From Gammaproteobacteria bacterium (GTDB lineage: Bacteria > Pseudomonadota > Gammaproteobacteria > Steroidobacterales > Steroidobacteraceae): a stretch of 37,044 bases of DNA. Location: NCBI GenBank assembly GCA_030040795.1, contig JASHTA010000453.1, positions 1 through 37,044 of the forward strand, in the 5' to 3' direction. This document shows, one piece after another, positions 1,839 to 28,834 of this stretch; positions within the stretch are counted from its first letter, which is position 1; every line of letters starts with the position of its first letter. A program made the translations under genes and the position numbers. The notes beneath the pieces are model-generated. The model ran no database searches. It was given only the letters and a program-made list of their open reading frames with translations, and was not told where the DNA came from.

Positions 1839-1969
1839 TCCCGGCCGCGGGTCGAGCTGCCCGTAGGAGCCTGTGGGGGAGGTCCGCAGGGGCGAGGGGC
1901 TATCCCTGGGCCCCACTTTGCGCATAATCGTCTCTCGCTCCTCGCGAGCGGCAGGCATCGAGGCGAGCA

Positions 1970-3442
1970 TTGAGCCAAGTCATTCCAATCGACGATCTCG
2001 TGGACGAGCAGAGGATCGGCTGGTTCAACATCAACCTGCTGGTCTGGTCCTTCCTCGCGATGTTTGCCGACGGATACGACATCGGAGCGCTGTCCTTCGC
2101 GCAGCCCGCGCTCGAGAGGCTGTGGCACGTGCCGAAGGCCGCATTCGGGCCGGCATCCAGCGCGAGCCTCTTCGGCATCCTGCTCGGCGCGCCGCTCCTC
2201 GGATTCATCGGCGACCGGTACGGCCGCAAGGCCGCGATCATTCTCGGAAGCGTCATCTACGGGGTGACCTCGATCGCCGTCATCTGGACGCACAACATCG
2301 ATCAGGTGATCGGGCTGCGCTTTTTGACCGGCATCGGCCTCGGTGGCCTGATGCCGAACACCATCGCCCTCAACTCCGAGCTGGCGCCGAAGCGCTTGCG
2401 CGCAACGCTCATCACGCTCATGTTCGTCGGCATCACGCTCGGCAGCAGCGCCCCGGGGCTCACCGCCTATGCGCTGATGCCGCGTTTCGGATGGAGGGTG
2501 CTGTTCCTCATCGGCGGGCTCGTTCCGCTCACCGTCGCCGCGTGCCTCGTGCGCGCGCTGCCGGAGTCGGTCAAATTTCTCGCGCTGCGCGCCGATCGGT
2601 ACCGGCAGCTGCTTGCAACCGCGCGCGACCCGCAGAGCGTGGACCGCTTGACGCGCCTTGCTCGCGACAATGAGCTGCAGCTCCTCGATACGGCGCGCAA
2701 GATGAGGCGGGATTTGCGCCTCGCGGAGGCGGTCAGATTCGAGCTTCCCGCCGCTGTCGACACGGCTGCCGATGCGGTGGGCTTGCGGAAACTCTTCACC
2801 GGTGGGCTCGCCTGGATCACGCCGCTGCTGTGGCTGTGCTTTTGCACCGCGCTGATGTCCAACTACTTTCTCAACTCCTTCCTGCCGCTCATCTTTCGCG
2901 ACAGTGGGCTGCCGGCCGGAAAGGCCGCGCTCGCCGCGACTCTCTATCACGTCGGCGGAACCGTCGGCGGATTGCTCGTGAGCGTGCTGCTCGATCGCTT
3001 CGGCTTCGTCGTGACCGCGATACTGTTCGTGGCCGCGGCGCCCGCGATCTGGGCGTTAGGCCTCGTTCAAACAACATTCATCGCGCTGGCGCCTTTTGCG
3101 GGCGCCTCCGGTTTCGCCGTTCTCGGCGCGCAGTTCGGCAACAACGCGGCTGCCGGGCTTCTGTATCCCACCGCCGTGCGCTCGAAGGGCGTCGGTTGGG
3201 CGCTGGGGATCGGGCGCTTCGGCGCCATCGTCGGGCCGCTGCTCGGTGGCGTGCTCCTTGGCATGAACCTCCCTCTGCGGCAGCTCTTTCTCGCTGCCGC
3301 GGCACCGATGCTGGTCGGCGCGGTTGCGGCGGTCGTGCTGGTGCGGCTGTGCTATGCTCGTCTCGGTGGCTTGCGCCTGGGGGACGTTCCTGTCAGCGCA
3401 GAGCCGCAAGTTCGCGGAGCCGGTGCACCAATACCGGACTGA
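1970..3442 (+). CDS. MFS transporter, aromatic acid:H+ symporter (AAHS) type
   Basis: This 490-residue inner-membrane protein has about 12 hydrophobic segments. Near the N-terminus it has the AAHS-like DGYDIG stretch in the first helix, and the MFS loop signature GDRYGRKAA follows between helices 2 and 3. The family imports 4-hydroxybenzoate, protocatechuate, vanillate and similar aromatic acids with protons; the substrate cannot be read from the sequence. The start is a TTG preceded closely by GGCGAG. It is preferred because the next ATG (about 2060) would remove a normal AAHS N-terminal segment. A loop of about 90 residues in the middle of the protein is longer than usual between helices 6 and 7. 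The gene follows the carboxylase by 131 bp and ends 4 bp before the next gene, so coupling to that gene is likely. Confidence 0.85.
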   Translation: MSQVIPIDDLVDEQRIGWFNINLLVWSFLAMFADGYDIGALSFAQPALERLWHVPKAAFGPASSASLFGILLGAPLLGFIGDRYGRKAAIILGSVIYGVTSIAVIWTHNIDQVIGLRFLTGIGLGGLMPNTIALNSELAPKRLRATLITLMFVGITLGSSAPGLTAYALMPRFGWRVLFLIGGLVPLTVAACLVRALPESVKFLALRADRYRQLLATARDPQSVDRLTRLARDNELQLLDTARKMRRDLRLAEAVRFELPAAVDTAADAVGLRKLFTGGLAWITPLLWLCFCTALMSNYFLNSFLPLIFRDSGLPAGKAALAATLYHVGGTVGGLLVSVLLDRFGFVVTAILFVAAAPAIWALGLVQTTFIALAPFAGASGFAVLGAQFGNNAAAGLLYPTAVRSKGVGWALGIGRFGAIVGPLLGGVLLGMNLPLRQLFLAAAAPMLVGAVAAVVLVRLCYARLGGLRLGDVPVSAEPQVRGAGAPIPD

Positions 3443-3446
3443 TCGT

Positions 3447-3998
3447 ATGGAAACCGCCGCGATTGCCCGCCGCCGCCGGCCCTTCCTCGCGCCGATCTGG
3501 CTGACGGTGCTGCTGCTCGTGATCGCAGTCGTCGTTGCGCTCGAGGTGTACCAGGCGGCCGCGACGACTACCGTCGTCGTGGTGCGGCCTGCCGAGAGCG
3601 CTCTCGGGAGCATCCAGGACGCGCCGCTGGTTCCTGAAGGAGAACAGCGCGCCGAGCGCCTGGCGGAACTCTTCGGAGGTACCGCGGCACCGGGGCGCAT
3701 AGCGGCCATTTACGTGGCGGCGACGCGGCAGACGCAGCAGACGGCGGCGCCTCTTGCTGCTCGGCTCGGCCTTCATCCGATCGTCGTTCCCGCGGCGGAT
3801 GTGGATGGAACCGTGGCGCGCGCGCTGAACGATTATCGGGGCGAGACGGTGATGATCGTCTCCGGCGCGATGGACCGCGTCGTCGAGGCGCTGAGCGGGA
3901 GCAAATCCGGCGCGCCCGCGGCCAACGACTACGGGAACATCTACATCGTGAGCGTGCCGATGTTGGGGAGTGCCGGCGTCGTGCAGCTGCACTATTGA
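3447..3998 (+). CDS. Membrane-anchored histidine-phosphatase-like protein lacking catalytic histidines
   Basis: A basic N-terminus and one hydrophobic helix (about residues 14-34) are followed by a domain of about 145 residues with the histidine phosphatase (phosphoglycerate-mutase-like) layout: VVVVRPAES near residues 43-51, LVPEGEQRAERLAELF, IAAIYVAATRQTQQTAAPLA, and a late TVMIVSGAMD strand. In active members the first motif is RHG/RHA and the late strand carries GHS. Here His is replaced by Pro48 in the first motif and by Gly140 in the second, while Arg47 and Arg94 are kept. It therefore looks like a non-catalytic paralogue, perhaps a periplasmic binding or scaffold protein; that role is inference. 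The start ATG lies 4 bp after the MFS stop, so translation is probably coupled. Confidence 0.7.
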   Translation: METAAIARRRRPFLAPIWLTVLLLVIAVVVALEVYQAAATTTVVVVRPAESALGSIQDAPLVPEGEQRAERLAELFGGTAAPGRIAAIYVAATRQTQQTAAPLAARLGLHPIVVPAADVDGTVARALNDYRGETVMIVSGAMDRVVEALSGSKSGAPAANDYGNIYIVSVPMLGSAGVVQLHY

Positions 3999-13955: not shown

Positions 13956-15260
13956 ATGGCCACTCAGGCGACTCCGCGCGTCTTCATCGAGACCCTCGGC
14001 GAGTCTGCATCTACCGAAGTCGTGCTGAAGGGTTGGGTCTACCGGCTGCGGATTCTCGGCAAGACCGCCTTTCTGATCCTGCGTGACTGCACCGGTGAGG
14101 CGCAGTGCGTCCTCGCGGCAGAAGCGTTGAGGAAGCATCGGCTCAAGGCCGAGGATGTGGTGGAGGTCCGTGGGACGCCTCGGCCGGAGTCTCGGGCGAA
14201 GGCGGGCTGTGAAGTGCACGTATCGGCCATCCGGGTGCTCAATCGTGCCGCGTCTAATCTTCCGTTCCTTTCCTCTCACGGACTGGAATCGGTCGGCCTC
14301 GAGACCGTGCTCCAGTATCGTCCCCTGGCGCTACGGACCGATTCTGTCGGCGATATTTTCCGGGTGCAGGCCGCACTCCTCGCGGCATTCCGCCAAGCGC
14401 TCGATCGCAGGCACTTCACCGAGATCGTCACGTCCAAGATCGTCGGCGGTGGAACGGAAGGCGGAACGAACCTGTTCGCGATCGACTATTTCGACCGCGT
14501 GGCGTATCTCGCCCAGAGCCCGCAGTTCTACAAGGAGCACGGGGTCGCCGGCTTCGAGCGAGTGTACGAGACCGGCCACGTTTATCGGGCGGAGCCCCAT
14601 GCCTCCAGCCGACATTTGACGGAATACTACTCGCTCGACCTGGAGGTCGGCTTCATCGACGGGCCGGAGGAAGTGATCCAGCTCGAGCGGGAGCTGCTAA
14701 CGGAGATGTTCGAGATGCTCAACAGCCGGTTCGGTCCGGCACTGCTCAAATATCGCTCGGAGCGGCTGCCGTCCATGCTCGATGTCCCGTGCTGGGAATT
14801 CGCAGAGTGCCTGGAGAGGCTTCGCGAGGCGTTCGGTCGTTCCGATTTGACCGAAGATCTCGACCCGCAAGCGGAGCGGCAGCTGTGCGAGCTCGCGCGC
14901 GAATCGGCCGGCATTCCCGCTGTATTTGTGCTCGGATTTCCCTTGTCTGCGCGGCCTTTCTACACGGCACCTCGCGGCATTGCGGGCGCGGCAAACAGCT
15001 TCGACCTCCTGTTCGAGGGAATCGAGATTACAACAGGTGGACAGCGGCTCCATCGGCGGCAGGATCTCGAGGCGGCCCTGCGCGCCCGTTCCATCGATCC
15101 AATAGGCTTCGAGAGCCATCTCGCGATCTTTGATCTCGGCATGCCACCCCACGGCGGACTTGCGATCGGGTTGGAGCGTCTGACGTGCCAGGCGATGGGC
15201 CTGCCCAATGTGCGGCAGGCGGCCCTTTATCCGCGCGACCGATACCGCCTCGCGCCGTAG
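13956..15260 (+). CDS. aspS: Archaeal-type aspartyl-tRNA synthetase (aspartate--tRNA(Asn) ligase type)
   Basis: At 434 residues it matches the short archaeal/eukaryal AspRS form and not the bacterial form of about 590 residues, because the GAD insertion is absent. An N-terminal OB-fold anticodon domain (about residues 20-105; KGWVYRLRILGK) precedes a class II catalytic core with GTEGG (166-170), YLAQSPQFYKEH, motif 2 (VYRAEPHASSRHLTEYYSLD) and motif 3 (GLERL, Arg408). All ATP-binding arginines expected are present, so it should be active. It charges tRNA-Asp with aspartate and, if non-discriminating, also tRNA-Asn for later amidation. The position that tunes this in archaeal enzymes (after GWV) is Tyr29, neither Trp nor His, so specificity is open. 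It is probably a second AspRS beside the housekeeping one; self-protection against an AspRS inhibitor is another possibility. Confidence 0.88.
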   Translation: MATQATPRVFIETLGESASTEVVLKGWVYRLRILGKTAFLILRDCTGEAQCVLAAEALRKHRLKAEDVVEVRGTPRPESRAKAGCEVHVSAIRVLNRAASNLPFLSSHGLESVGLETVLQYRPLALRTDSVGDIFRVQAALLAAFRQALDRRHFTEIVTSKIVGGGTEGGTNLFAIDYFDRVAYLAQSPQFYKEHGVAGFERVYETGHVYRAEPHASSRHLTEYYSLDLEVGFIDGPEEVIQLERELLTEMFEMLNSRFGPALLKYRSERLPSMLDVPCWEFAECLERLREAFGRSDLTEDLDPQAERQLCELARESAGIPAVFVLGFPLSARPFYTAPRGIAGAANSFDLLFEGIEITTGGQRLHRRQDLEAALRARSIDPIGFESHLAIFDLGMPPHGGLAIGLERLTCQAMGLPNVRQAALYPRDRYRLAP

Positions 15261-16105: not shown

Positions 16106-16167
16106 GCTGGTCATCGGCCGCGCCTTCTGGTGGCATTGCGCTCCCCAAAGCCATCCTGGAAGCCGCC

Positions 16168-16473
16168 ATGAATCAAGCCCGCTGCCTCGCGATTCGCCGC
16201 GTCGCGCTCCACGTCGGACTACTCGCTATCGCAACATTGCCCGGCCTTGCCGGCGCTCAATCCTCTCCCTTTCTCACGGGCGCCACCGCGCTGCAATCGA
16301 ACATACTCGCGTGGCTCACGCCGATCGCGGTCATTCTGGTCATGGTGCTCGGCGCCATGGCGATGGCGAATCGGATGTCGTGGGGATGGTGCCTCGGCGC
16401 GATCCTGGGTATCGCCCTCGCGTTTGGCGCATCTCAGATCGTCTCCTGGGTTCGCGGCATGTTCGGTGTTTGA
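16168..16473 (+). CDS. virB2: VirB2-type pilin of type IV secretion system
   Basis: This 101-residue protein has a long signal sequence (cleavage expected after GLAGA, about residue 30) and then two hydrophobic helices separated by a short hydrophilic loop (MANRMSWGW). This is the VirB2/TrbC pilin plan. It would be the major pilus subunit, inserted in the inner membrane before assembly. It is the first gene of the co-directional cluster and is followed by virB3 after 7 bp. Confidence 0.82.
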   Translation: MNQARCLAIRRVALHVGLLAIATLPGLAGAQSSPFLTGATALQSNILAWLTPIAVILVMVLGAMAMANRMSWGWCLGAILGIALAFGASQIVSWVRGMFGV

Positions 16474-16480
16474 GACGGCA

Positions 16481-16879
16481 ATGAGCGGGCGTAACACGGG
16501 ACTTGCCGCCGATCCGCTGTTCGTCGCGGCAACGCGGCCGCCCATGCGGTGGGGCGTCACGTATTCGGCACTCCTATTCAACCTGGTTTTCACCATGGAA
16601 GTGTTTCTGGTCACGCGGAACCTTCTGACGCTCCTGATCGCGGCGCCGATCCACGGCGTTGGAATGCTGCTGTGCGCGCGCGATGCTCGTTTCTTCGATC
16701 TGCTGCTGTTGTGGGGGCGGACTCAAATGCCGGCGCTGCTCGGAAACCGCGGCTACTGGCGGGCGAGCAGTTACAGTCCGCTCGCGCTCGCTTTGCGCAC
16801 GGCCAGTCGCCGGAATCGGCGACGCCCAGAGTGCTGGCTCGGTCCATACGCGAAGGCGGGTGGCTCATGGCAGCGCTGA
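16481..16879 (+). CDS. virB3: VirB3-type T4SS inner-membrane protein
   Basis: The 132-residue protein opens with the VirB3 hallmark DPLFVAATRPPMRWGV, followed by paired hydrophobic segments (about residues 26-60) and RDARFFDLLLLW. VirB3 links the pilus machinery to the VirB4 ATPase. The tail of about 45 residues beyond the usual VirB3 end is basic. The gene overlaps virB4 by 13 bp, a close pairing that is fused into one protein in some systems. Confidence 0.85.
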   Translation: MSGRNTGLAADPLFVAATRPPMRWGVTYSALLFNLVFTMEVFLVTRNLLTLLIAAPIHGVGMLLCARDARFFDLLLLWGRTQMPALLGNRGYWRASSYSPLALALRTASRRNRRRPECWLGPYAKAGGSWQR

Positions 16880-19350
16880 GCCGCGCGGCGCAGATCCGGC
16901 GCGAGTCGGAGCTCGCACAGCGCATTCCCTACGCGGCGCACGTTGCAGAGAAGGTCGTCCGGACGACACTCGGCGATTACGTGCAGATTTTGCGCCTGTC
17001 CGGTGCGAGCTTCGAGAGCGCGGATGACGTTGAGCTCAACGGCTGGCACGAGCGCCTGAACGTGTTGTGGCGCAATGTGGCGAGCCCGCAGATCGCGCTG
17101 TGGACTCATCTGGTACGGAGGAGGGAAGGCATCTCGGCGGGCGCGGGCGGCGGGGCGGGCTTCGCGCGCGAGCTTGCAGAGAAATACCAAGGAAGGTTGG
17201 CGGGCGAGACGCTCATGGTCAACGAGCTTTACGTTTCCGCGGTGTACCGGCCGGTATCCGGCGCGGCTTCCGGCTGGATCTCGAAGCTTCTGTCCAAGAC
17301 GCAGCGGAGCGCATTCGAGCTCGAGCTGCGGGATGCGCTCGATGCATGCGAAAAGCTCGCGCAGACGCTGTGCGCTTCTCTCGAGCGGTACGAGCCCGAG
17401 CCGCTCGGAATATTCCGAGCTGGCGGTCGCGTCCAGTCGCGCCTTCTCGAGCTGCTGTCGTTTCTCGTCAGCGGTGAGACGGGACCGGTGCCGTTGCCGC
17501 GTGCGCCGCTCTACAGAGCTCTCGGTACGACTCGACTGTTCTTTGGAAACGAGGCGATCGAGTACCGCGGCGCGGCTCACACGCGGCTCGGGGCGATGCT
17601 CGGCATCAAGGAGTATGCAACACCGAGCGTGGTCGGCATGTATGACCGGCTGTTGTCGGCGCCGTTCCCGTTCGTCCTCACTCAATCCTTTGCCTTCCTC
17701 ACCAAGGCTGCCAGCCAGGGACTGCTGCAACGGCAGTCCAATCGCATGGCGAACGCGGGGGATTTTGCGATCTCGCAGGCGCGAGAGCTGAAGGACGCCC
17801 TGGATGCGCTGACGAGCAACGATTTCGTGATGGGTGACCACCATTTCTCGCTTCAGGTCCTGACGGACATGAGCGACGGCGGAAGCGGCGGTGGGGATGG
17901 CCAAGTCATCAGGTCTCTCAACGATCGCGTAGCCCTCGCGCGCAGCCTGCTCGCCGACACGGGAATGACTGTCGCGCGCGAGGATCTTGCGCTCGAGGCG
18001 GCGTTCTGGGCGCAGCTGCCCGGAAACTTTCCGATGCGCCCCCGCAAGGCCGCGATCACTTCGCGCAACTTCTGCGCGATGGCTCCGCTCCACAACCATC
18101 CCTGCGGACGCGCGGCCGGGAATCACTGGGGCGATGCGCTCGCGCTGCTGATCACGAGCGCACGCTCGCCGTACTATTTCTCGCTGCACGCGAGCGATCC
18201 GTCGGCTGCAGACGGCGGCAGCCGCAAGGATACCGGACACAGCTTCATCTGCGGGCCGACCGGCTCCGGCAAGACGGTGCTCATCGGCTTTCTTCTCGCG
18301 ATGCTCAGCCGGCAGGGCGTGACGCAGGTGGTCTTCGACAAGGACTGTGGGCTCGAGATCCTCGTGCGGGCGCTGGATGGGGAATACCTTCCGCTTCGCA
18401 ACGGCGTGCGGACGGGATTCAATCCGCTGCAGCTTCCCCGTACGGCGAACGACGAGGAATTCCTGAAAGTATGGCTCGGCGCCCTAGTACGGCCGCCGGG
18501 CGGCCGGCCGTTGAGTGTCCGGGAGCAGGGGGACCTCGACCAGGCATTGCGAGGAACACTCGCCCTCGAGCCCCGGGAGCGCCGCCTGTCGCGCCTCGTG
18601 GAGTTTCTCGATCCGACGGATCTCGAGGGGGTGCACGCGCGTCTGGCCCGCTGGTGCGAGGCGCGGCGAGGCGATTACGCCTGGGTGTTCGACAACATCG
18701 AGGATACGGTGGTCCCGAGGCTCGACGGGCGTCCGGTGATCGGTTTTGACGTCACGGATTTCCTGGAGAATGAGGTCACGAGGCCGCCGGTCATCCTCTA
18801 TCTGTTCCATCTCGTCCGTCGGCTGCTCGATGGGCGGCGCCTCGTATGCTGGATGGACGAGTTCTGGCGACTGCTCGCCGACCCGGCCTTCGAGCGCTTT
18901 GCCAAGGACGGACCGAAGACCTGGCGCAAATTGAACGCCGTCATGTGCCTCGCGACCCAAAGCGCGAGCGACGTGCTGCAAAGTCCGATCAGCCGCACGA
19001 TCGTCGAGCAGACGCCGACGAAGATCTTCTTTCCGAGCGTCGACGCGAATGAGGAGGACTACGTTGGCGGCCTTGGACTGACGGAGCGGGAATTCAAGCT
19101 GGTGAGGCAGCAGCTCCTGCCGGGCTCGCGGTCTTTTCTCGTGAAGCAGGGTCATCACAGCGTGGTCTGCCAGCTCGATCTTAAGGGTTTCGACGCGGAG
19201 CTCGCAGTGATTTCGGGACGGATGGAGGAGGTCGAGCGTATGCGTCGAATCATCGAAGAAGTCGGTTCCACCGCGGCGCAGTGGCTGCCACGGTTTCTCG
19301 CACCGCTGGCGGCTGCCCGATCGTCCGGCTCCCAGCGCTCTCATCCGTGA
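16867..19350 (+). CDS. virB4: VirB4/CagE-family T4SS ATPase
   Basis: This 827-residue protein is the normal length for VirB4. The N-terminal CagE/TrbE domain (to about residue 400) precedes a RecA-like ATPase domain. Walker A is GPTGSGKT (463-470) and Walker B is LVCWMDEFWRLL with Asp664/Glu665. An ATQSASD stretch follows, as in VirB4 sensor regions. It powers pilus assembly and substrate transfer at the cytoplasmic face of the inner membrane. The start at 16867 is the ATG overlapping the end of virB3; the open frame further upstream is virB3 DNA in another frame. Confidence 0.95.
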   Translation: MAALSRAAQIRRESELAQRIPYAAHVAEKVVRTTLGDYVQILRLSGASFESADDVELNGWHERLNVLWRNVASPQIALWTHLVRRREGISAGAGGGAGFARELAEKYQGRLAGETLMVNELYVSAVYRPVSGAASGWISKLLSKTQRSAFELELRDALDACEKLAQTLCASLERYEPEPLGIFRAGGRVQSRLLELLSFLVSGETGPVPLPRAPLYRALGTTRLFFGNEAIEYRGAAHTRLGAMLGIKEYATPSVVGMYDRLLSAPFPFVLTQSFAFLTKAASQGLLQRQSNRMANAGDFAISQARELKDALDALTSNDFVMGDHHFSLQVLTDMSDGGSGGGDGQVIRSLNDRVALARSLLADTGMTVAREDLALEAAFWAQLPGNFPMRPRKAAITSRNFCAMAPLHNHPCGRAAGNHWGDALALLITSARSPYYFSLHASDPSAADGGSRKDTGHSFICGPTGSGKTVLIGFLLAMLSRQGVTQVVFDKDCGLEILVRALDGEYLPLRNGVRTGFNPLQLPRTANDEEFLKVWLGALVRPPGGRPLSVREQGDLDQALRGTLALEPRERRLSRLVEFLDPTDLEGVHARLARWCEARRGDYAWVFDNIEDTVVPRLDGRPVIGFDVTDFLENEVTRPPVILYLFHLVRRLLDGRRLVCWMDEFWRLLADPAFERFAKDGPKTWRKLNAVMCLATQSASDVLQSPISRTIVEQTPTKIFFPSVDANEEDYVGGLGLTEREFKLVRQQLLPGSRSFLVKQGHHSVVCQLDLKGFDAELAVISGRMEEVERMRRIIEEVGSTAAQWLPRFLAPLAAARSSGSQRSHP

Positions 19351-19380
19351 GCTCTCTTGATATCCACGAGGGTCGCCGTC

Positions 19381-20097
19381 ATGCCTCCGAAGTTCTCAGT
19401 CTATCTGCGTGCCATGGGTTTGCTGCTGCTCCTCGGGGTCGCTCCTGCTGCGCGCGCGCAATGGGCGGTGGTCGATGTGGGCGCCATCGCTCAGCTCATC
19501 CAGGAGGTCGAGCTGACGGAACAGGCGCTTGCGACCGCGCAGGGACAGCTGCAGCAGGTCGAGCAGACCTACCGCGCGATGACCGGCGACCGGGGCATGC
19601 AGTCGCTGCTGAGCGGAACGGTACGCAATTACCTGCCGACCAGCTCGAGTGAGCTGCAGGCCGCGCTCGGCCAAAGCGGCACATCTTATGGTGCGCTTGC
19701 GACACTCATGCAGAGCGCTATCGCCACAAATACGGTGCTGACGCCGCAGCAGCTTGCAGTCCTTCCGGCCGATGCCGCCGGTTTCCTGCAAGCCGCTCGA
19801 CGCACGACCGCGCTGTTGCAGGCGATCGAAGGAGACGCGCTCGCCAACTCGAGCGGTCGGTTCGCCTCGCTGCAACAGCTGATCGACGCGATCGGTACCG
19901 ACACCGACCAGAAGGGCAGTCTCGATCTCAATGCCCGAATCTCCGCTGAGCAGGGCATGTTGCAGAACGAGCAGACCAAGCTGCAAGTGCTCTTTCAAGC
20001 GCTCGTCGCTCAGCAGTGGTCCGATCGGCAGCGAGAGCGCGAGCAGGTCGTCGCCGACCACGGCGACTTCAGCACGCGCTTCGCGCCCACGCCGTAG
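19381..20097 (+). CDS. virB5: VirB5-type minor pilin / T4SS periplasmic protein
   Basis: This 238-residue protein has a clear signal peptide (MPPKFSVYLRAMGLLLLLG, cleavage after ARA about residue 26). A mostly helical, glutamine-rich mature part follows (ELTEQALATAQGQLQQVEQTYRAM), as in VirB5/TrbJ proteins, which sit at the pilus tip. ATG 19381 is preferred over an upstream TTG at 19357 because GAGGG precedes it and the signal peptide then starts normally. It lies between virB4 and virB6 as in classical VirB order. Confidence 0.8.
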   Translation: MPPKFSVYLRAMGLLLLLGVAPAARAQWAVVDVGAIAQLIQEVELTEQALATAQGQLQQVEQTYRAMTGDRGMQSLLSGTVRNYLPTSSSELQAALGQSGTSYGALATLMQSAIATNTVLTPQQLAVLPADAAGFLQAARRTTALLQAIEGDALANSSGRFASLQQLIDAIGTDTDQKGSLDLNARISAEQGMLQNEQTKLQVLFQALVAQQWSDRQREREQVVADHGDFSTRFAPTP

Positions 20098-20111
20098 CGG
20101 AAGGGGGCGAG

Positions 20112-21020
20112 ATGGGATTCTTCGAGACATTCTGGAGCTGGCTCAATACGCAGCTCTCGAGCTATATCGGCCAAAACACGGCAACGGTCGCGGAGACCCT
20201 CGAGCCCGCGGTGGTCACGCTAGCGACGATATACGTGATGGTCTGGGGTTATCTGCAGCTCACCGGCCGAGTCGAGGAGCCGGTCACGACGGGACTCAGG
20301 CGCATCGTGATTCTCGTGGTGGTTATCGGGGGTGCCTTGCATCTCTGGCTCTACAACACGGTCATCGTCGATACCTTCTATAACGCACCCGTGGCGCTCG
20401 CGGGAGCGGTCGTCGGCACGGCGAATCCGGTCGCAACGGTCGACTCGATCTGGGAGAGCGGAGGACAGGTCGCGGGCTTCCTCTGGAGCAAGGGCGGTGT
20501 CTTCGGCGGAGACGTGGGTTTCTACGTCGCAGGCGCAATGGTCTGGCTGCTGATGGGGCTGCTCTGCGTATACACGATGTTCCTGATCGCGCTCTCGAGC
20601 ATCGCCTCCGCGGTATTGCTCGCTCTCGGACCGCTCTTCATCGTCATGTTGCTGTTCGACTCCACGCGCAGGTACTTCGAGGCGTGGATCGCCCAGCTTG
20701 CCGCCTACGCCCTGATCACCATTCTCACCGTTCTCGTCGGGGCGCTGCTCTTGCAGCTCGTAAGTGCCTATGCGCAGCAGACTGCCGCGCGCGGGTCGGC
20801 GATCGTCACCGTCGATGCTCTCAACATGGTTCTCGTCGCCATGGTGGTGTTCCTGCTGATGCGGCAGGTCATGCCCATCGCCGCCGGCCTCGCCGGGGGT
20901 GTCGCGCCGAGCACCTTTGGCGTCGTCAGCCGAACGATTGGATGGGGCCTGGGTCGCGGACGCTCAATGGTCTCCGGCGCCGGAGCTCAAACGGTCAATT
21001 CTTGGATCGGTGCGCGTTAG
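20112..21020 (+). CDS. virB6: VirB6/TrbL-type polytopic T4SS protein
   Basis: The 302-residue protein has about six hydrophobic helices, with the conserved central segment SSIASAVLLALGPLFI typical of VirB6/TrbL and a glycine-rich C-terminus. VirB6 forms part of the inner-membrane channel. The start follows AAGGGGGCGAG and lies 14 bp after virB5. Confidence 0.87.
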   Translation: MGFFETFWSWLNTQLSSYIGQNTATVAETLEPAVVTLATIYVMVWGYLQLTGRVEEPVTTGLRRIVILVVVIGGALHLWLYNTVIVDTFYNAPVALAGAVVGTANPVATVDSIWESGGQVAGFLWSKGGVFGGDVGFYVAGAMVWLLMGLLCVYTMFLIALSSIASAVLLALGPLFIVMLLFDSTRRYFEAWIAQLAAYALITILTVLVGALLLQLVSAYAQQTAARGSAIVTVDALNMVLVAMVVFLLMRQVMPIAAGLAGGVAPSTFGVVSRTIGWGLGRGRSMVSGAGAQTVNSWIGAR

Positions 21021-21049
21021 ACGCCTCGTCCACGCCTGAAGGAGAGGTC

Positions 21050-21223
21050 ATGAGGGTGCTGATTCTGCTGGTTTCGTTTGGGCTCGTGAGCGCCTGTGCC
21101 GCGCCGCATGCGGTGAAGGTTCATTGCGATCGGCACTTGGTACCGATCAACACATGGGCCGCCCCGAAGGCCAGCCAATCTTCGGTCACCGGACAGAGCG
21201 CGCCGCGGAGCGTGGTGCAGTGA
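21050..21223 (+). CDS. Short lipoprotein, VirB7-like by position
   Basis: This 57-residue protein has a lipobox (LVSAC, lipidated Cys16) after a short hydrophobic signal, and a small mature part of about 42 residues. VirB7 proteins are short outer-membrane lipoproteins that anchor VirB9. The position between VirB6 and VirB8/VirB9 and the size support that role, but sequence similarity is too short to prove it. GGAGAGG precedes the ATG. Its stop overlaps the GTG start of virB8 (GTGA). Confidence 0.75.
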   Translation: MRVLILLVSFGLVSACAAPHAVKVHCDRHLVPINTWAAPKASQSSVTGQSAPRSVVQ

Positions 21224-21969
21224 GCGTGGATCCCGACCTCGAGGCGTACTGGCGAGAGGCCGCCGCGTGGGATTTCGACCGCGTGGCCCAGCTCCGGCGC
21301 GGCGAGCAGAATGCCTGGCGCGCCGCAGCGGTGGCGGGTCTCTGCGCGCTGCTCTGCGCTTGCGCGCTCGTACTTCTCGTCCCGCTCAAACAGCTCGTGC
21401 CGTTCATCGTGCGCGTGGACAACACGACGGGGATCGTCGATGTGGTGCCGGCGATGACGCGTGCCATCGATCCGGGGCAGGCCGTCACGCGTTACTTACT
21501 GACGCACTACGTGACCGTCTGCGAGCGATTCAATTTCGCGACGGCCGAAAGCGACTACATGGAGTGCGGCGCATTCCACTCTGCGAAGCGCAACGAGGAG
21601 TGGTATGCACTGTGGAACCCGGCCAATGCGTCATCGCCGCTGAACCGTTACAAGGACGGCACGACCATTCGTGCGAGCGTCGAATCGGTGAGCTTCTTTC
21701 GCCGTGCGAGCGGAATCACGGATCTCGCCCAGGTGCGATACATCAAGCGGCTGCGGCACGGGGGCGGCGGAGAGGAGGAGGTGACGCACTGGATCGCAAC
21801 CATCCAGTACGCCTACGCCCGGCCGTCGAACGACATTCGGATCCGGAGCCTCAATCCGCTCGGATTCAAGATCCTCGACTTTAGTACGGAGCCCGAGGTG
21901 ATCGGGGAACAGGCGACCGGCGCGGGGAGCGCTGCATCGAGCCCAGTCGGTGAGGGAGTGCACAGATGA
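21220..21969 (+). CDS. virB8: VirB8-type T4SS assembly protein
   Basis: This 249-residue bitopic protein has a short cytoplasmic N-terminus with EAYWREAAAWDFDR, one membrane helix (about residues 34-56), and a periplasmic NTF2-like domain starting PFIVRVDNTTG, as in VirB8/TrbF. The GTG at 21220 overlaps the lipoprotein stop and is chosen because the sequence upstream in this frame lacks family character. The stop overlaps virB9 (ATGA). Confidence 0.9.
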   Translation: MSVDPDLEAYWREAAAWDFDRVAQLRRGEQNAWRAAAVAGLCALLCACALVLLVPLKQLVPFIVRVDNTTGIVDVVPAMTRAIDPGQAVTRYLLTHYVTVCERFNFATAESDYMECGAFHSAKRNEEWYALWNPANASSPLNRYKDGTTIRASVESVSFFRRASGITDLAQVRYIKRLRHGGGGEEEVTHWIATIQYAYARPSNDIRIRSLNPLGFKILDFSTEPEVIGEQATGAGSAASSPVGEGVHR

Positions 21970-22802
21970 GAGCGGAACAGCGTGCCGGGTGGATTCGCGT
22001 TCTCTCTTGTGGCCTGCTTGCGCTCGCCGGGTGGCAGACGCCGATGTCGCAAGCGGAGGTCTACCCGTCGAGGAGCTCGGGTGATGCGCGAATCCGCACT
22101 GCGATCTACGATGCGGATGAGGTCTATCGGCTCCACGGATTCGTCGGCTTCCAGATCGAGCTGGATTTCGCGCCGGGCGAATCGTTCGTTGGGCTCGCAT
22201 CGGGCGACATCGAAGCCTTGTCTTTCGTTGCCCAAGGGAACCATCTGTTCCTCAAGCCGCGAGTTCCGTCGGTGGGCACCAATGTCACCGTTCTAACGTC
22301 GCTCCGCCAGTACCATCTCTACTACACGGCGACCGCGGCACAACCTGATCAATCGGACCCCGATCTCGTCTATGCGGTGAGATTCGAGTACCCCTCTGCC
22401 GCGCAATCCAAGGCGGACGCCGCACGTGTTGCGATCGAGAAGCGGCTGGATGCGGCGTCGCGCACACGCCCGCAGAATCTCGACTATTGGTACTGCGGCG
22501 ATCCGGCGCTGCGGCCGGTGGAGGCCTCCGACGACGGCGTGCACACGCGTTTGAAGTTCGGCGCACAGGCGGAGCTGCCGGCAGTCTTCGTGCGCAACGA
22601 CGACGGGAGCGAATCGCTGCTCAACTTCGACATCGAGGGGGGCGTGATGGTGATCCACCGCGTCGCACGTCGATTCGTTCTGCGGCGCGGCGCCCTGACG
22701 GGCTGCATCGTCAATAAGGGGTACGGCGGAACGGGTGCGCGCCTGGACTCGGGCACGGTGTCGCCGGATGTGGAACGGGTGCGTAAAGGAGCGGCGCCAT
22801 GA
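21966..22802 (+). CDS. virB9: VirB9/TrbG-type outer-membrane complex protein
   Basis: This 278-residue secreted protein has a signal peptide ending near SQAEVYPS. It is followed by the VirB9 N-terminal pattern (RIRTAIYDADEVYRLHGFVGFQIELDFAPGE in broken form) and a C-terminal lobe with NLDYWYCGD, FRNDDGSE-like and GGVMVIHRVARRFVLRRG sequence. VirB9 with VirB7 and VirB10 forms the ring-shaped core across the periplasm. The gene is joined to virB8 and virB10 by 4-bp ATGA overlaps. Confidence 0.93.
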   Translation: MRAEQRAGWIRVLSCGLLALAGWQTPMSQAEVYPSRSSGDARIRTAIYDADEVYRLHGFVGFQIELDFAPGESFVGLASGDIEALSFVAQGNHLFLKPRVPSVGTNVTVLTSLRQYHLYYTATAAQPDQSDPDLVYAVRFEYPSAAQSKADAARVAIEKRLDAASRTRPQNLDYWYCGDPALRPVEASDDGVHTRLKFGAQAELPAVFVRNDDGSESLLNFDIEGGVMVIHRVARRFVLRRGALTGCIVNKGYGGTGARLDSGTVSPDVERVRKGAAP

Positions 22803-24190
22803 GCCTGCTCGGGAGGCTCGGGCCTGGCGGAGCGTTGGATCCGCCGCAGACGGGCGGCTCTCAAACGGTAGCAGGAGAGCGGAGCGACGCAGTCGTTCAT
22901 CGGGTCCGCTCGCTGGAATCGCGGATCGGCAACATCTTGGCGCTCGGGCTGATATGCGCACTCGGGTTTGGGCTGCTCGTGTGGTACTACAGCACCGCGC
23001 TGAGGAGACCCGTCCGCGCGGCTCGGAGCGCACAGGCGCTCACGGCGAGTCGGGCACAGAGTGAGATGCCGCTGCCGCCTCTCGGATCCATCCCGCTCGA
23101 GGGACCTCCCATCCTCAGTGGACATCGGAATGTTCCGCCCCAGGCGGCGGTATCCCCGCAGGCCGCACCCGCAGAGCAGCCGCCGGTGCGCCCGTCACCC
23201 GTGATGCCGCAACCGCCCGCGCTGTCGATGCCGCAGCTGCCGCCGGTTCCAGCATTGCCACCGCCGCTCGCTTCCTTGCCGTCAATGGTTGGACCCGGGC
23301 CGATGATTCCGCTCGCTTTGACGGGCACCCCTTCGTACAGCTGGCGTGCTCCGTCGCCAGGCTTGTCGCGAAGTCCTCCGGCACTGAGTCCGCATCAGCG
23401 GACCTTCGAGAGGCTGCTATCAGGGCCCGTCTTCGCCGCACAGTCGGGCGCCGTCGAGTCGTCCGGTCCGCAGACCGCGACGGGTGAAGCCCCTGTGGTC
23501 GCCGGTCCGGAAACCTCAGTGTCTGCCACGGCGCCTGCGCCGAGCAGCGAATCGCGGTCCGACGGCCTCGCTCAGTTGCTCACCCCTTCGGCAACGCCAG
23601 CAGCCTCCGCCCGCGTGCTGCCCACGCGCAGCCTGCTGCTTCCGAAGGGCGCCTTTATCGACTGCACGCTCGAAACGGCGATCGACTCGACACTGCCCGG
23701 TATGACGACGTGCATCACTGCGACCGACACCTTCGGCGCGGATGGCAAGGTGGTTCTGCTCGAGCGCGGATCGAAGCTGATCGGCGAGACACGCGGCGAG
23801 GTCCAGCAGGGCAGCGCCCGGGTATTCGTACTTTGGACGGAGGCGCGTACGCCTACGGGGGTGGTGATTCCACTCGCATCGCCCGGCACGGACGAGCTCG
23901 GCCGCTCAGGCCTTCAGGGCGAGGTCAATCGGCACTTCTGGCAGCGTTTTGGAGCGGCAATCCTCGTCTCGATCATCGATGCCGGCGCCGAGGCTGCCGT
24001 GCAGTCGGGAAACGGCACGGTCATCTACGATCCGACCACGACGCAGGACGTGACGAGCGAGGTGCTGAAGCAAACGCTGAACATTCCGCCGACGGTCGTC
24101 AAGAGCCAGGGAGATCGGATCCAGGTGCTCGTCGCGCGCGACCTCGACTTTCGATCGGTCTATGAGCTCCGCGCCTCGGCTGAGCGGTAG
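22799..24190 (+). CDS. virB10: VirB10/TrbI-type T4SS core protein
   Basis: This 463-residue protein has a cytoplasmic N-terminus, one membrane helix (about residues 44-64), a long proline-rich periplasmic linker (about 95-190) and a C-terminal TrbI beta-barrel domain beginning near SLLLPKGAFIDCTLETAID, with VVLLERGSKLIGE and FWQRFGAAILVSIIDAGAE. It spans both membranes and senses energy from the ATPases. It overlaps virB9 by 4 bp and virB11 by 29 bp. Confidence 0.95.
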   Translation: MSLLGRLGPGGALDPPQTGGSQTVAGERSDAVVHRVRSLESRIGNILALGLICALGFGLLVWYYSTALRRPVRAARSAQALTASRAQSEMPLPPLGSIPLEGPPILSGHRNVPPQAAVSPQAAPAEQPPVRPSPVMPQPPALSMPQLPPVPALPPPLASLPSMVGPGPMIPLALTGTPSYSWRAPSPGLSRSPPALSPHQRTFERLLSGPVFAAQSGAVESSGPQTATGEAPVVAGPETSVSATAPAPSSESRSDGLAQLLTPSATPAASARVLPTRSLLLPKGAFIDCTLETAIDSTLPGMTTCITATDTFGADGKVVLLERGSKLIGETRGEVQQGSARVFVLWTEARTPTGVVIPLASPGTDELGRSGLQGEVNRHFWQRFGAAILVSIIDAGAEAAVQSGNGTVIYDPTTTQDVTSEVLKQTLNIPPTVVKSQGDRIQVLVARDLDFRSVYELRASAER

Positions 24191-25223
24191 CCCGTCCGCC
24201 GCGGACCCCCGTGCGGGGAATACCTCGGCCCTCGAGCTGACTCTGCGCCCGTTGCGGCCGCTGCTTGCCGACTGCGATGTGACCGAGCTGTGCATCAATC
24301 GGCCGGGCGAGGTCTTCATCGAGACGCGCGCGGGCTGGGGGCGCAAGCCTTTGGAGTTCGCGGACTTTGACTGGTGCCTGCGCCTCTCGAAGCTGGTCGC
24401 GAATTTCAGCTGCCAGCGCATCGACGAGCAGGCACCGCTGCTCTCCGCGTCTCTTCCGGACGGCGAGCGCATTCAGATCGTCATACCGCCCGCGACGACG
24501 AGTCAGACCGTCGCGGTCACGATACGGCGGCCGTCCGCGGAGCTGTGGTCTCTCGAGGATCTCGCGCTGCGCGGCATCTTTCGGTCCACGCAGCGCGCGA
24601 GCGGCTCGCTCGACGAGGTCGAGACGGAGCTGTTGCGTTTGCTCGAGGCTCGTGACTACGAGCGCTTCATGCGCCTTGCCGTTCGAAGCCGCAAGAATAT
24701 CCTGGTCTCGGGCCCCACGGGCTCGGGCAAGACGACCTGGACCAAGGCACTCATCCAAGAAATTCCCGCCGACGAGCGCCTGATCACGATCGAGGATGCT
24801 CGCGAGCTCGTCCTCGATCGCCATCCGAATCACGTGCGGCTGTTCTATAGCAAGGACGGCCAGGGGCTCGCGCGGGTCACTCCCAAGCAGCTGCTCGAGT
24901 GCTGTCTGCGCATGAAGCCGGACCGCGTGCTGCTTGCCGAGCTGCGCTCCGAGGAAGCGTTCGACTACCTCCGCAACGTCAACTCGGGACATCCGGGCTC
25001 CATAACGAGTGTGCACGCCGCATCGGCGGAGCTCGCCTTTGAGCAGCTGGTGCTGCTTGTCAAGCAAAGCCGCGCGGGATCGGAGCTCGCGCGGCGGGAT
25101 ATCAAGAGCCTGCTCTACATGCTCGTCGACATCGTGATTCAGTTCGGCGTCGAGCGTCACGAGCGCTTCATCAAGGAGATCTGGTACGAGCCGGAGCGCA
25201 AGCGCCGAGGCCGCAGTCCCTGA
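24162..25223 (+). CDS. virB11: VirB11-type T4SS hexameric ATPase
   Basis: The 353-residue protein has a two-domain VirB11 plan. The N-terminal part (DVTELCINRPGEVFIE) is followed by a RecA-like ATPase with Walker A GPTGSGKT (184-191), LITIEDARELVL (Asp box), the Walker B-like DRVLLAELRSEEAFDYL and GHPGSITSVHAAS (His box). It sits at the cytoplasmic base of the channel and cooperates with VirB4 and VirD4. Confidence 0.95.
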   Translation: MSSAPRLSGSPSAADPRAGNTSALELTLRPLRPLLADCDVTELCINRPGEVFIETRAGWGRKPLEFADFDWCLRLSKLVANFSCQRIDEQAPLLSASLPDGERIQIVIPPATTSQTVAVTIRRPSAELWSLEDLALRGIFRSTQRASGSLDEVETELLRLLEARDYERFMRLAVRSRKNILVSGPTGSGKTTWTKALIQEIPADERLITIEDARELVLDRHPNHVRLFYSKDGQGLARVTPKQLLECCLRMKPDRVLLAELRSEEAFDYLRNVNSGHPGSITSVHAASAELAFEQLVLLVKQSRAGSELARRDIKSLLYMLVDIVIQFGVERHERFIKEIWYEPERKRRGRSP

Positions 25224-25241
25224 GGCCGGGACGCAACGCAC

Positions 25242-25736
25242 GTGGATGAGGCGACAACACAGGCAGGTCTTCTGATGGAGGCGGCGCAGCAGCATCAGCA
25301 ACAGGCGCAGATTGCCATCGAGCGGCTGACCGCCATGGCGCAGGGGCTCGATCAGGTCGTGCGTCAGGAGATTCGCAGCGCCTTTGCGGAGGAGTTCCAG
25401 ACGCTCGGTGTCGCGAGCCGCCACGCCGCGGAAGCCCTGCACTCGGTGAGGCGAGCCGCGAGTGTGCGTTTGGCGCTCTGGGCCATTGCGGTGATTGCCG
25501 CATGCTCTGCGATTCCGGCGGCCATCGCGTGGACCGTGCTGCCGTCGCGCGCAGAGGTCGCGCAAGCGCGGCAGGAGCGCGACGAGCTCGCGGCAACCGT
25601 GGCGCGCCTGCGGGAGCAGGGCGGCGCGATCGATCTGCGGCGGTGCGGCTCGGCGGGCCGGCTCTGCGTGCGAGTCGAGCGCTCGGGTCCCGCGTACGGT
25701 ACACACGCGGACTACCTCGTCGTAGCGGGCTACTGA
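25242..25736 (+). CDS. Membrane/coiled-coil protein of conjugation operon, function unknown
   Basis: This 164-residue protein has a glutamine-rich helical N-terminus (EAAQQHQQQAQIAIE), one membrane helix (about residues 72-97), a heptad-like segment (RAEVAQARQERDELAATVARL) and a small C-terminal domain with two cysteines (RRCGSAGRLCVRV). No family was recognised. Its place between VirB11 and the coupling protein, with 1 bp to the next start, suggests a role with the relaxosome or coupling protein. The start could be the GTG used here or the ATG at 25275. Confidence 0.75.
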   Translation: MDEATTQAGLLMEAAQQHQQQAQIAIERLTAMAQGLDQVVRQEIRSAFAEEFQTLGVASRHAAEALHSVRRAASVRLALWAIAVIAACSAIPAAIAWTVLPSRAEVAQARQERDELAATVARLREQGGAIDLRRCGSAGRLCVRVERSGPAYGTHADYLVVAGY

Positions 25737-25737
25737 C

Positions 25738-27162
25738 GTGCTCGAGCCATCCGTGATGCTGCGAGGAGGATCGGGATGGCCTACCGTGGTCGCGAGTATC
25801 CTCGGCGCACTCGGAATGATGGTCGCGCTCGTGCGCAACGGCGCGAGCGCAGAGGAGCACCGGCGTGGAGCGGTCGTTCGAACTCCTCGGCTGAGGAGGC
25901 GCTTCGCGAGGCCAGGGCGGAAAGTCGCGGGCTGGATGCCACTGATGCTGGGTGGGGTCGTTCTCCGTCCGGAGGATGAGCCGAAGCACTTCAAGCTCGT
26001 CGGCACCACGGGCACCGGCAAGACGACGGCCATCTGCGCGCTTCTCAGCGGGGCTTTGGCGCGTGGCGATCGCGCCGTCATCACAGACCCGGACGGCACT
26101 TATCTCCGGCGCTTCTACGACCGGTATCGCGGCGATGTGATCCTCAATCCATTCGAGCCGCACTCCGCTAGGTGGGATCCGTTCTCCGAAACCCGCAATC
26201 CCTATGACTACGAGGCGCTCGCTCGGGGGCTGATCGCCGAGAGCGATGACACCTCGGGGCGCGAGTGGCGGGCCTATGCGCGCACGTTTGTCTCGGCGGT
26301 GATGCGGCGATGTAGCGAGTCTGGCGTTCGCGATGTCGCGGACCTGTGGCGCCTGCTGGGCGTCGCTGGAACCGACGAGATGCGGCAAATGCTCGCTGGG
26401 ACGCCGGCGCAACCGTTTCTCGATCCGGACAACGCACGGATGTTCGGCTCCATCCGTTCGATTGCCGTGTCGGCGACCGCGGCGCTCGAGCACGTCGCGG
26501 CGCAGCGAGGCACGCCGCTATCGGTTCGCGATTGGGTCGGCCGAGGACGCGGCGTGCTGTTCATTCCATATCGAGCGGGCCAGATCGCGGCCCTGCGCAC
26601 GATCATCGCGACGTGGACTCGGCTCGCCATCTTCGAGGCCATGAACGAGTCCCGAAGCGAGGACCGGCGGCTGTGGTTCGTCGTGGACGAGCTCGATGCG
26701 CTCGGTGCGATCGATGGATTGAAGGACGCTCTGGCTCGGCTCCGGAAGTTCGGCGGCCGATGCGTGCTCGGCTTCCAGTCGATCGCTCAGGTCTCGAGCA
26801 CCTATGGGGCTGGCGACGCCCAGACCATTGTCGAGAACTGCGGCAATACGCTCATTCTGCGCTGCTCGGGAGGCGAGCACGGCGGTACCTCGTACTTCGC
26901 GTCACGCCTCATCGGCGACCGCGAGATCCTGCGGCGGCAGATCTCCCGCGGCCGGGATCGCGGTGGGCTGTTCTCGCCTGGCGGCCCGCGCCGTTCCACT
27001 CACGTGAGCGAGCAGCTCGCCACCGAGCCCGCAGTGATGCCATCGGAGCTGGAGCAGCTTCCGGACCTCATGGGATTTCTGAAGACCGCCTCCTCGCCGC
27101 ACTGGGTGCGGATTCGCCTTGCGCAGGACTCCCGTCGATGGCGATCTACTACCTTGGCATGA
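25738..27162 (+). CDS. virD4: VirD4/TraD-type coupling protein (T4CP)
   Basis: The 474-residue protein has one short N-terminal membrane segment (about residues 14-34) and a P-loop DNA-translocase domain. Walker A is GTTGTGKT (89-96), Walker B is LWFVVDELDALG and the downstream GFQSIAQ region is typical of TraD/TrwB. Coupling proteins receive the relaxase-DNA complex and pump DNA into the channel. At 474 residues it resembles the compact TrwB-like form. It starts at a GTG 1 bp after the preceding stop and overlaps the relaxase gene by 25 bp. Confidence 0.93.
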   Translation: MLEPSVMLRGGSGWPTVVASILGALGMMVALVRNGASAEEHRRGAVVRTPRLRRRFARPGRKVAGWMPLMLGGVVLRPEDEPKHFKLVGTTGTGKTTAICALLSGALARGDRAVITDPDGTYLRRFYDRYRGDVILNPFEPHSARWDPFSETRNPYDYEALARGLIAESDDTSGREWRAYARTFVSAVMRRCSESGVRDVADLWRLLGVAGTDEMRQMLAGTPAQPFLDPDNARMFGSIRSIAVSATAALEHVAAQRGTPLSVRDWVGRGRGVLFIPYRAGQIAALRTIIATWTRLAIFEAMNESRSEDRRLWFVVDELDALGAIDGLKDALARLRKFGGRCVLGFQSIAQVSSTYGAGDAQTIVENCGNTLILRCSGGEHGGTSYFASRLIGDREILRRQISRGRDRGGLFSPGGPRRSTHVSEQLATEPAVMPSELEQLPDLMGFLKTASSPHWVRIRLAQDSRRWRSTTLA

Positions 27163-28214
27163 GGACCTTCGGCCGCGCCCGCGGCAAGCGCGGCAGCCGA
27201 GCGACGAGCGGCGCCGCCTATCGTTCGGGCGAGCGCATCCGGGACGATCGCAGTGGCGCCGTGTACGACTACCGGAACCGCCGGGATGTGCTTCACAAGG
27301 AGATTCTCCTGCCCTCGCGGTTTTCCGCCGTTGGGTCCGATCTCGATTGGGCACGTGACCGCTCCGCGTTGTGGAACGCCGCGGAGACCGTGGAACGATA
27401 CAAGAATGCCCGGGTGGCGCGCGAGTTCACGGTTGCGTTGCCCCACGAGCTCAGCCCTGAGAGGCGAGCGGCGCTCGCCCGGCGGTTCGGGCAGGAGATC
27501 TCCGATCGCTACGGAAACGCCGTCGATCTCGCCATCCACGCTCCTCGAGGAGATCCACGAAACTTTCATGCCCATCTGTTCACGACCACCCGCGAAGTGA
27601 CGCCGCAGGGCCTCGGACCGAAAACCACGCTCGAGCTCTCCGGCACGGAGCGCCATCGCCGCGGCCTATCCCGGTGGGCCGAAGAGCTGGCATACCTTCA
27701 TGAGCGCTGGGCCACGCTGGCGAACGAGACCTTGAAAGAGGCTCACATCGAGTCGCGCCTTGCGGCCATCAGCCGTACCGAGGCGCTGAGCCGCGCAGCG
27801 GTGCCCCGGTTGCCGCTTGCGGCCTATCACATGGAGCGGCGCGGCCTGCGTAGCTTCGTCGCCGAGCGCATTCGGGAGCGGCACCGCGCCGAGCTCGCGC
27901 GGCAGGTTGGCCTTTCACAGGCGACCCACCGCGAAGAGGCGCACAAAGGTTCAATATCCCAGGCGAACGATCGGGCCAGTGATCGGGCGAGTGGTCGAGT
28001 GAGCGATCGGACGAACGATCGCGCGAGCGAGGCGGCTCGCAAATGGGCCGCGGACCGCGGCACCGCGCGGTGGGGGCCTGTGAAGTCAACCGAAGACCTG
28101 CGGCGTGAGGCCGTGCGCAACTGGCTCGAGCACCGACAGCCGACACATCGGGAGGAGGCGCCGGAGCGGGAACGGACAAGGACGCCATCGCATGATTACG
28201 ATCTGGGACTGTAG
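27138..28214 (+). CDS. MobA/MobL-family relaxase (MOBQ type)
   Basis: This 358-residue protein has the MobA/MobL N-terminal signature MAIYYLGM with candidate catalytic tyrosines Tyr4/Tyr5, a GAAYRSGERI motif, and the metal-binding three-histidine motif (His134, His144, His146 in LAIHAPRGDPRNFHAHL). Such enzymes nick the transfer origin and stay bound to the 5' end during conjugation. No helicase or primase domain is attached, so it is a minimal form. The C-terminus is hydrophilic and contains a 12-bp tandem repeat. It overlaps virD4 by 25 bp in a different frame; ATG 27138 is the first Met giving the proper N-terminus. Confidence 0.92.
   Translation: MAIYYLGMRTFGRARGKRGSRATSGAAYRSGERIRDDRSGAVYDYRNRRDVLHKEILLPSRFSAVGSDLDWARDRSALWNAAETVERYKNARVAREFTVALPHELSPERRAALARRFGQEISDRYGNAVDLAIHAPRGDPRNFHAHLFTTTREVTPQGLGPKTTLELSGTERHRRGLSRWAEELAYLHERWATLANETLKEAHIESRLAAISRTEALSRAAVPRLPLAAYHMERRGLRSFVAERIRERHRAELARQVGLSQATHREEAHKGSISQANDRASDRASGRVSDRTNDRASEAARKWAADRGTARWGPVKSTEDLRREAVRNWLEHRQPTHREEAPERERTRTPSHDYDLGL
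27963..28022 (+). repeat. Five tandem 12-bp imperfect repeats in the relaxase gene
   Basis: Units such as GCGAACGATCGG, GCCAGTGATCGG and GTGAGCGATCGG repeat every 12 bp, encoding four-residue units like ANDR, ASDR, ASGR, VSDR and TNDR. They form a low-complexity linker in the relaxase C-terminal region. Confidence 0.85.
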
Positions 28215-28223
28215 GGGGCAACA

Positions 28224-28652
28224 ATGAAGGATGACGAGATCTCCAGCGAATTCTCGATCGTTTCCGACGAGGGGTACGTAGTCGGTACCCGGGTGCATTG
28301 CTGGAGATGCCGCGCGGTCATTGAGGTGATTTGCATTTACTGCGCGGCTGGCGATATCTGCGGCGACCGCTATGAGGATTTCACCGTGTCGAACATCACG
28401 GCGGTCGATGAGGCATTGCGGGGGCAGCTCGAGCGGTGGCCGCTCTTTCGCTTTGCGTACAGCAAGACTGCAGGCGGACGATACCTTGCCAACCACTGCC
28501 CGCACTGCCGAGCGCTGCAGGGCGACTACTTTCTCCATTGCGAGCCCAGCGGAGCATTCTTCAGCCTGAAGGGCGCGCCGCCGGGTTCCGTCGTGCTCAC
28601 TCCGCTCAGTGGCCGGATACGCTTGAGTGGAGACGAGGGCTTCGAGCCGTAG
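28224..28652 (+). CDS. Zinc-ribbon-like protein of unknown function
   Basis: This 142-residue soluble protein contains several paired cysteines: HCWRCRAV, ICIYCAAGDIC, then HCPHCRALQGDYFLHC. Together these could bind two zinc ions in ribbon folds. No family was recognised. It starts 9 bp after the relaxase stop and closes the conjugation operon, so it may be a regulator or accessory DNA-binding protein of transfer. The start ATG follows AGGGGG. Confidence 0.75.
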   Translation: MKDDEISSEFSIVSDEGYVVGTRVHCWRCRAVIEVICIYCAAGDICGDRYEDFTVSNITAVDEALRGQLERWPLFRFAYSKTAGGRYLANHCPHCRALQGDYFLHCEPSGAFFSLKGAPPGSVVLTPLSGRIRLSGDEGFEP

Positions 28653-28713
28653 CCGAGCGTCCGAGTATTCCGGCCGCAAGGGCGGGCGAGCTACGGTAAA
28701 CTGCACGGGCGGC

Positions 28714-28789
28714 GCCCCCGTAGCTCAGTGGATAGAGCGACCGCCTCCTAAGCGGTAGGTCGTCGGTTCAACTCCGGCCGGGGGCGCCA
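28714..28789 (+). tRNA. tRNA-Arg(CCT)
   Basis: The 76-nt cloverleaf has a perfect acceptor stem GCCCCCG/CGGGGGC, D-arm GCTC/GAGC, anticodon stem ACCGC/GCGGT with loop CTCCTAA (anticodon CCT, reads AGG), T-arm GTCGG/CCGGC with loop TTCAACT, discriminator G and encoded CCA. It directly borders the conjugation cluster (61 bp after the zinc-ribbon gene). tRNA genes are frequent integration sites, but no integrase or second copy of its 3' end was seen in the window. Confidence 0.97.
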
Positions 28790-28834
28790 ATGAAATTACG
28801 AAAATAATACAGTAAATTCAGGAATGTCCCGCGG

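Follow-up and report, generated by a model that had tools for sequence, protein, structure and literature searches.

Gene content of the cluster

The DNA analyzed here is a stretch of 37,044 nucleotides from an uncultured soil bacterium of the family Steroidobacteraceae (assembly GCA_030040795.1, contig JASHTA010000453.1). This stretch, hereafter the window, is an entire contig of a draft genome that is 77% complete and distributed over 565 contigs. Positions 16168-28652 hold an intact, co-directional set of type IV secretion system (T4SS) genes, running on the + strand from virB2 to a zinc-ribbon gene and lying 5' of a tRNA-Arg(CCT) gene (28714-28789). All features described below are on the + strand.

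The set begins with the pilin gene virB2 (16168-16473; PF04956, 1.2e-14), followed by virB3 (16481-16879; PF05101, 2e-23), the ATPase gene virB4 (16867-19350; TIGR00929, 711 bits, over cut-off), virB5 (19381-20097, start codon inferred; PF07996, 4e-35) and virB6 (20112-21020; PF04610, 7e-38). A virB7-like gene (21050-21223), recognized from its sequence, encodes a lipoprotein of 57 amino acids with the lipobox LVSAC and occupies the same position in two congeners (G001 and G002). Its stop codon is overlapped by the inferred GTG start of virB8 (21220-21969; PF04335, 9e-44), after which come virB9 (21966-22802; PF03524, 1e-46), virB10 (22799-24190; PF03743, 1e-50) and the ATPase gene virB11 (24162-25223; TIGR02788, 389 bits, over cut-off). 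The remaining genes encode a protein that we call orfX (25242-25736), a coupling ATPase of the TraD/TrwB type called D4b (25738-27162; Walker A motif GTTGTGKT; PF10412, TrwB_AAD_bind, 2e-96), a MobA/MobL relaxase of 358 amino acids (27138-28214; PF03389, 3e-44) and the zinc-ribbon protein (28224-28652). The zinc-ribbon gene is present in G001 and G003 and was not found in the congener G002.

Profile matches thus place VirB4 together with VirB3, B5, B6, B8, B9, B10 and B11, and the relaxase and coupling protein beside them, as in systems of mating-pair formation type T (MPF_T). An earlier reading of the letters alone (the sequence-only reading) had described a full co-directional set of VirB2-B6, a B7-like lipoprotein, B8-B11, a membrane protein, a coupling protein, a relaxase and a zinc-ribbon protein, ending at tRNA-Arg(CCT), and both the profile matches and the position of the tRNA agree with it. 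It had also reported no VirB1, integrase, partition or replication gene, and none of these families was recognized among the window open reading frames (ORFs) scanned.

Upstream of virB2, a non-coding block (TTCTGGTGGCATTGCGC.CCC, 16125-16145) is found in each of the four congeneric species with 0-1 mismatch, the N position aside. It may be a leader or promoter element, possibly an origin of transfer (oriT).

The relaxase and its accessory protein

The relaxase probably starts at 27138 (MAIYYLG...), before the coupling-protein gene has ended. It combines the PF03389 domain with an N-terminal catalytic tyrosine (Tyr28) and an H-x9-HxH triad (His134, His144 and His146), the features by which a MOBQ relaxase is recognized, and these four residues are at least 95% conserved over 59 alignment rows, some of which share a genome. 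The assignment to MOBQ made from the letters holds for the domain and the catalytic residues; it does not extend to the NCBIfam MobQ equivalog model, which the protein fails to reach (176.6 bits vs a cut-off of 200), so the label "MOBQ-like" is drawn from Pfam PF03389 alone. Overall, the relaxase module looks functional.

We also looked at orfX, which had been listed as an unknown membrane protein. That description needs correcting in part: besides a coiled coil and a hydrophobic segment, the protein carries an MbeB-type C-terminal domain. Its C-terminal 50-67 residues match a plasmid MbeB-family protein (tblastn, 4e-8), and the same part matches a protein encoded on a mobilizable plasmid of Pseudomonas, by the gene that follows a MobA/MobL relaxase (tblastn, 7e-4). 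Comparison with hhalign gave 98%, and there was no match to Pfam MbeB_N. The predicted structure consists of two helices, of which the first is long, and a beta hairpin (mean predicted local distance difference test score 76, predicted template-modeling score 0.30). From these similarities, orfX is a probable mobilization accessory protein.

Elsewhere in the family, the stretch read at two loci, L050 (G137) and L052 (G136), holds a relaxase and zinc-ribbon pair but no T4SS, and three genomes (G050, G028 and G063) hold several MobA/MobL relaxases or VirB4 copies each.

Fixed site and purifying selection within the genus

The genus is represented by four species in our search set. The T4SS cluster is present in all four and in each of them tRNA-Arg(CCT) lies on its right, while the DNA past the tRNA differs among all four. 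On the left, an open reading frame, orf15355, adjoins virB2 in G001, G002 and G003. In G001 and G002 it also adjoins the gene for an aspartyl-tRNA synthetase (AspRS), these AspRS orthologues being 83-87% identical, and the AspRS side was covered in three of the four species; the left junction of each of these two genomes was assembled from two contigs, which break inside orf15355.

Pairwise ratios of nonsynonymous to synonymous substitution rates (dN/dS, Nei-Gojobori) were 0.08-0.27 for the VirB genes, 0.16-0.22 for D4b, 0.26-0.27 for the relaxase and 0.30-0.31 for orfX, against which the AspRS and DUF1614 genes on the flanks gave 0.11-0.14; the ratios are rough because dS reaches 1.4. By these values, with a whole range of 0.08-0.31, the cluster is under purifying selection. 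No internal stop was found in its genes, and the gene set is intact, in line with the earlier statement that decay is not evident. In-frame TGA codons flagged in VirB4 of relatives were set aside, the stops sitting at the C-terminal end in 6/6 loci checked, and an ORF running antisense across virB2, seen in several relatives, was discarded as an artifact.

Taken together, the gene content, the shared site and the selection make it probable, in our judgment, that the cluster is a T4SS of the conjugation type that is resident, inherited vertically and owned by its host, and not an integrative and conjugative element (ICE). The sequence-only reading had stated beforehand that the same cluster at the same site in all relatives, with no mobile borders, would argue for a resident system, and this is what we found within the genus.

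Two coupling proteins in the relatives

Twenty-one relatives carry D4b together with a second coupling protein, D4a, the two mostly flanking orfX. In the coupling-protein tree D4a and D4b form separate clades (support 99/96 and 99/99, respectively), and therefore a single duplication older than the split of these genera is indicated. On this tree, the genus of the window has retained D4b only and has lost one coupling protein. We found no description of tandem coupling proteins in one operon in the open-access literature. IncA/IncC plasmids (PMC9709138) are alike in having two TrwB/TraD coupling proteins of one group per replicon; they differ in that the 21 Steroidobacteraceae relatives hold two paralogues from one old duplication within one cluster, mostly around orfX.

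A tentative extension, which we hold to be possible and rather doubtful, is that the Steroidobacteraceae ancestrally possessed a conjugation machine that had been domesticated, in which two paralogous coupling ATPases flank an MbeB-like protein, and kept it as a host trait for chromosome-to-chromosome DNA exchange or export of single-stranded DNA (ssDNA); the genus of the window would then have this machine in reduced form, with only one coupling protein. The tandem coupling proteins of the relatives offer a natural comparison of substrate choice by each coupling ATPase.

The loss of one coupling protein would also suit a T4SS that delivers proteins, such as the bacteria-killing X-T4SS of Xanthomonadales, whose toxic effectors carry the recruitment domain XVIPCD, with the relaxase as a leftover, and the lack of an integrase is seen more typically in protein exporters that have no relaxase (PMC3158045). 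We consider this unlikely, as the relaxase keeps its catalytic residues over the 59 rows and its dN/dS of 0.26-0.27, an MbeB-like accessory gene sits within the cluster, and in many relatives the cluster includes a gene for a single-stranded DNA-binding protein (SSB) 5' of virB2.

tRNA-Arg and the search for recombinases

We asked whether tRNA-Arg could be the border of a mobile element bearing the T4SS. A gene for a tyrosine integrase begins immediately 3' of the tRNA in G001 and is oriented away from the T4SS. A further contig of the G001 bin (C41, locus L261) starts with 164 bases identical to window positions 28628-28791 and continues with an integrase resembling that one; 3.66 kb further on, the 3' end of the tRNA occurs for a second time, the element lying within positions 1-3824 of this contig. 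The ORFs just before that second copy look, from their sequences, like a HigBA toxin-antitoxin pair. As the start of C41 is identical to the window, it indicates a small element at the 3' side of tRNA-Arg in a very close strain. Judged from these arrangements, tRNA-Arg is the integration site of another, unrelated element on its 3' side and not the border of a T4SS-bearing element.

The 5' and 3' ends of the tRNA each occur once in the window, with no duplication around the T4SS that could serve as attachment ends, and G000, G002 and G003 each contain a single exact copy of the 3' end; a copy with one mismatch lies on a separate contig, G000:C538, where no tRNA was called. An E. coli-type dif sequence gave no match in the window. 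A tyrosine-recombinase profile run over 32 related loci (1.06 Mb) matched only the G001 integrase beyond the tRNA, and no PF00239 resolvase was found near any of these loci. The integrase or other recombinase expected of an ICE was thus not found in the element. An integrase lies within 60 genes in 87% of proteobacterial ICEs (PMC3158045), a figure that can be compared only loosely because the 32 loci span 4-57 kb.

Of the two possibilities left by the sequence-only reading, these results favor the stripped chromosomal transfer system, in view of the common site in 4/4 congeners and the purifying selection, over an integrative element with its recombination genes elsewhere; the second copy of the tRNA-Arg 3' end that it had proposed to look for is absent around the T4SS in the window. 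An active ICE using tRNA-Arg, with an integrase outside the contig, would account for the tRNA beside the cluster, for the use of this tRNA, by sequence, as an integration site in related strains and for the full set of conjugation genes. It is nonetheless very unlikely: the T4SS lies 5' of the tRNA and the element that integrates there lies 3' of it, the tRNA ends are single in the window, the left border is conserved in G001, G002 and G003, and no recombinase belonging to the related T4SS loci was found.

Distribution across the Steroidobacteraceae

Among 217 genomes of 25 genera of the family, VirB4 was found in 93 and the MobA/MobL relaxase in 99, each in 13 genera. Flanks are shared within genus g3 and within genus g7, and in genus g2 the relaxase lies at most ~2.5 kb from one PAP2-like gene in ~32/58 species (hand count). 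In G169, a single-contig genome of 3.47 Mb, the cluster is chromosomal. The VirB4 and coupling-protein trees group mostly by genus, and VirB4 identities correlate with those of RecA (Spearman 0.38, 210 non-independent pairs); rpoB was dropped as a species marker, its identities near 0.5 pointing to faulty extraction. Genomes of g2 without the T4SS were considered as empty sites and rejected, as absence there is indistinguishable from an assembly break because several contigs (L152, L153, L156, L157 and L162) stop at the T4SS junction or close to it. Some relatives have a phosphoribosyltransferase-like gene 3' of the relaxase, with matches below Pfam cut-offs.

Several points weigh against a resident, vertically inherited system. 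The genus sample of four species is a limit, and the family set consists of drafts, mostly metagenome-assembled genomes. Presence in the family is patchy and the site differs between genera; therefore the cluster moved at deep time. The trees contain conflicts as well, G082 falling outside g3 and G014 beside G169, which suggests occasional horizontal exchange. The tyrosine-recombinase profile was made for this work from a small number of sequences, and the PF00589 result holds among the matches listed. Finally, the conserved block before virB2 was the sole yield of the oriT search, and no oriT was identified.

Possible mode of action and comparison with known systems

If the cluster is a resident conjugation-type system, the MobA/MobL relaxase would nick an oriT via Tyr28, assisted by the MbeB-like membrane protein orfX; D4b would pass the relaxase-bound ssDNA on to the VirB2-B11 channel for delivery into another cell or to the outside. 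As an excision system is lacking, the cluster would act on chromosomal DNA, by Hfr-like transfer or by export of ssDNA, or on mobilizable elements that it serves in trans. The oriT, the DNA transfer, the substrate and the benefit are predictions.

Conjugation systems are usually regarded as parts of mobile elements. A complete system with its own relaxase, at fixed sites and under purifying selection in whole genera, would, if the interpretation is right, give common soil bacteria a route of gene exchange that belongs to the host.

Plasmid MPF_T systems of Variovorax and Methylomonas resemble the cluster in VirB2-B11 order, with VirB4 proteins 53-59% identical to its own. Unlike the cluster, they are located on plasmids or large replicons and give no tblastn match to its D4b, orfX or relaxase, and the copy of Variovorax RA8 adjoins a tyrosine recombinase and ParAB. 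If the cluster were instead the fixed remains of an old ICE or plasmid, now acting as a transfer helper in trans for mobilizable elements, this would agree with these being the closest VirB4 outside the family (plasmid collection) and with family members that have several MobA/MobL relaxases or, in two cases, relaxase and zinc-ribbon pairs with no T4SS nearby, but this reading is highly improbable, since a conserved relaxase of its own would be superfluous for a helper and no mobilizable element was matched to the cluster in this analysis.

Mobilization modules of the RSF1010/ColE1 type (MobA/MobL with MbeB/MobB) share the relaxase family and, through the MbeB-family protein, the C-terminal domain of orfX; they differ in that the relaxase and orfX of the cluster are coupled to a full chromosomal T4SS and that orfX lacks the MbeB_N match. 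The T4SS of the gonococcal genetic island (PMC4207684) is comparable only in a possible way of working: it is of MPF_F type, has a MOBH relaxase and is flanked by dif, whereas the cluster is of VirB type with a MobA/MobL relaxase.

Other genes of the window

The other Pfam-matched genes of the window are ordinary chromosomal ones: biotin carboxylase, MFS, peroxiredoxin, methyltransferase, FtsX/MacB, TauE, TetR, an enolase-superfamily enzyme, AspRS, tannase, a two-component pair, a TonB receptor and a PepSY protein. The AspRS gene (13956-15260), on the left flank and outside the T4SS, encodes an archaeal-type non-discriminating enzyme (PRK05159, 458 bits, over cut-off), that is, an aspartate-tRNA(Asn) ligase, with close orthologues only in the genus of the window in the family search. 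A second synthetase ORF of 605 amino acids, 34% identical to this AspRS, lies elsewhere in the genome (G000:C534).
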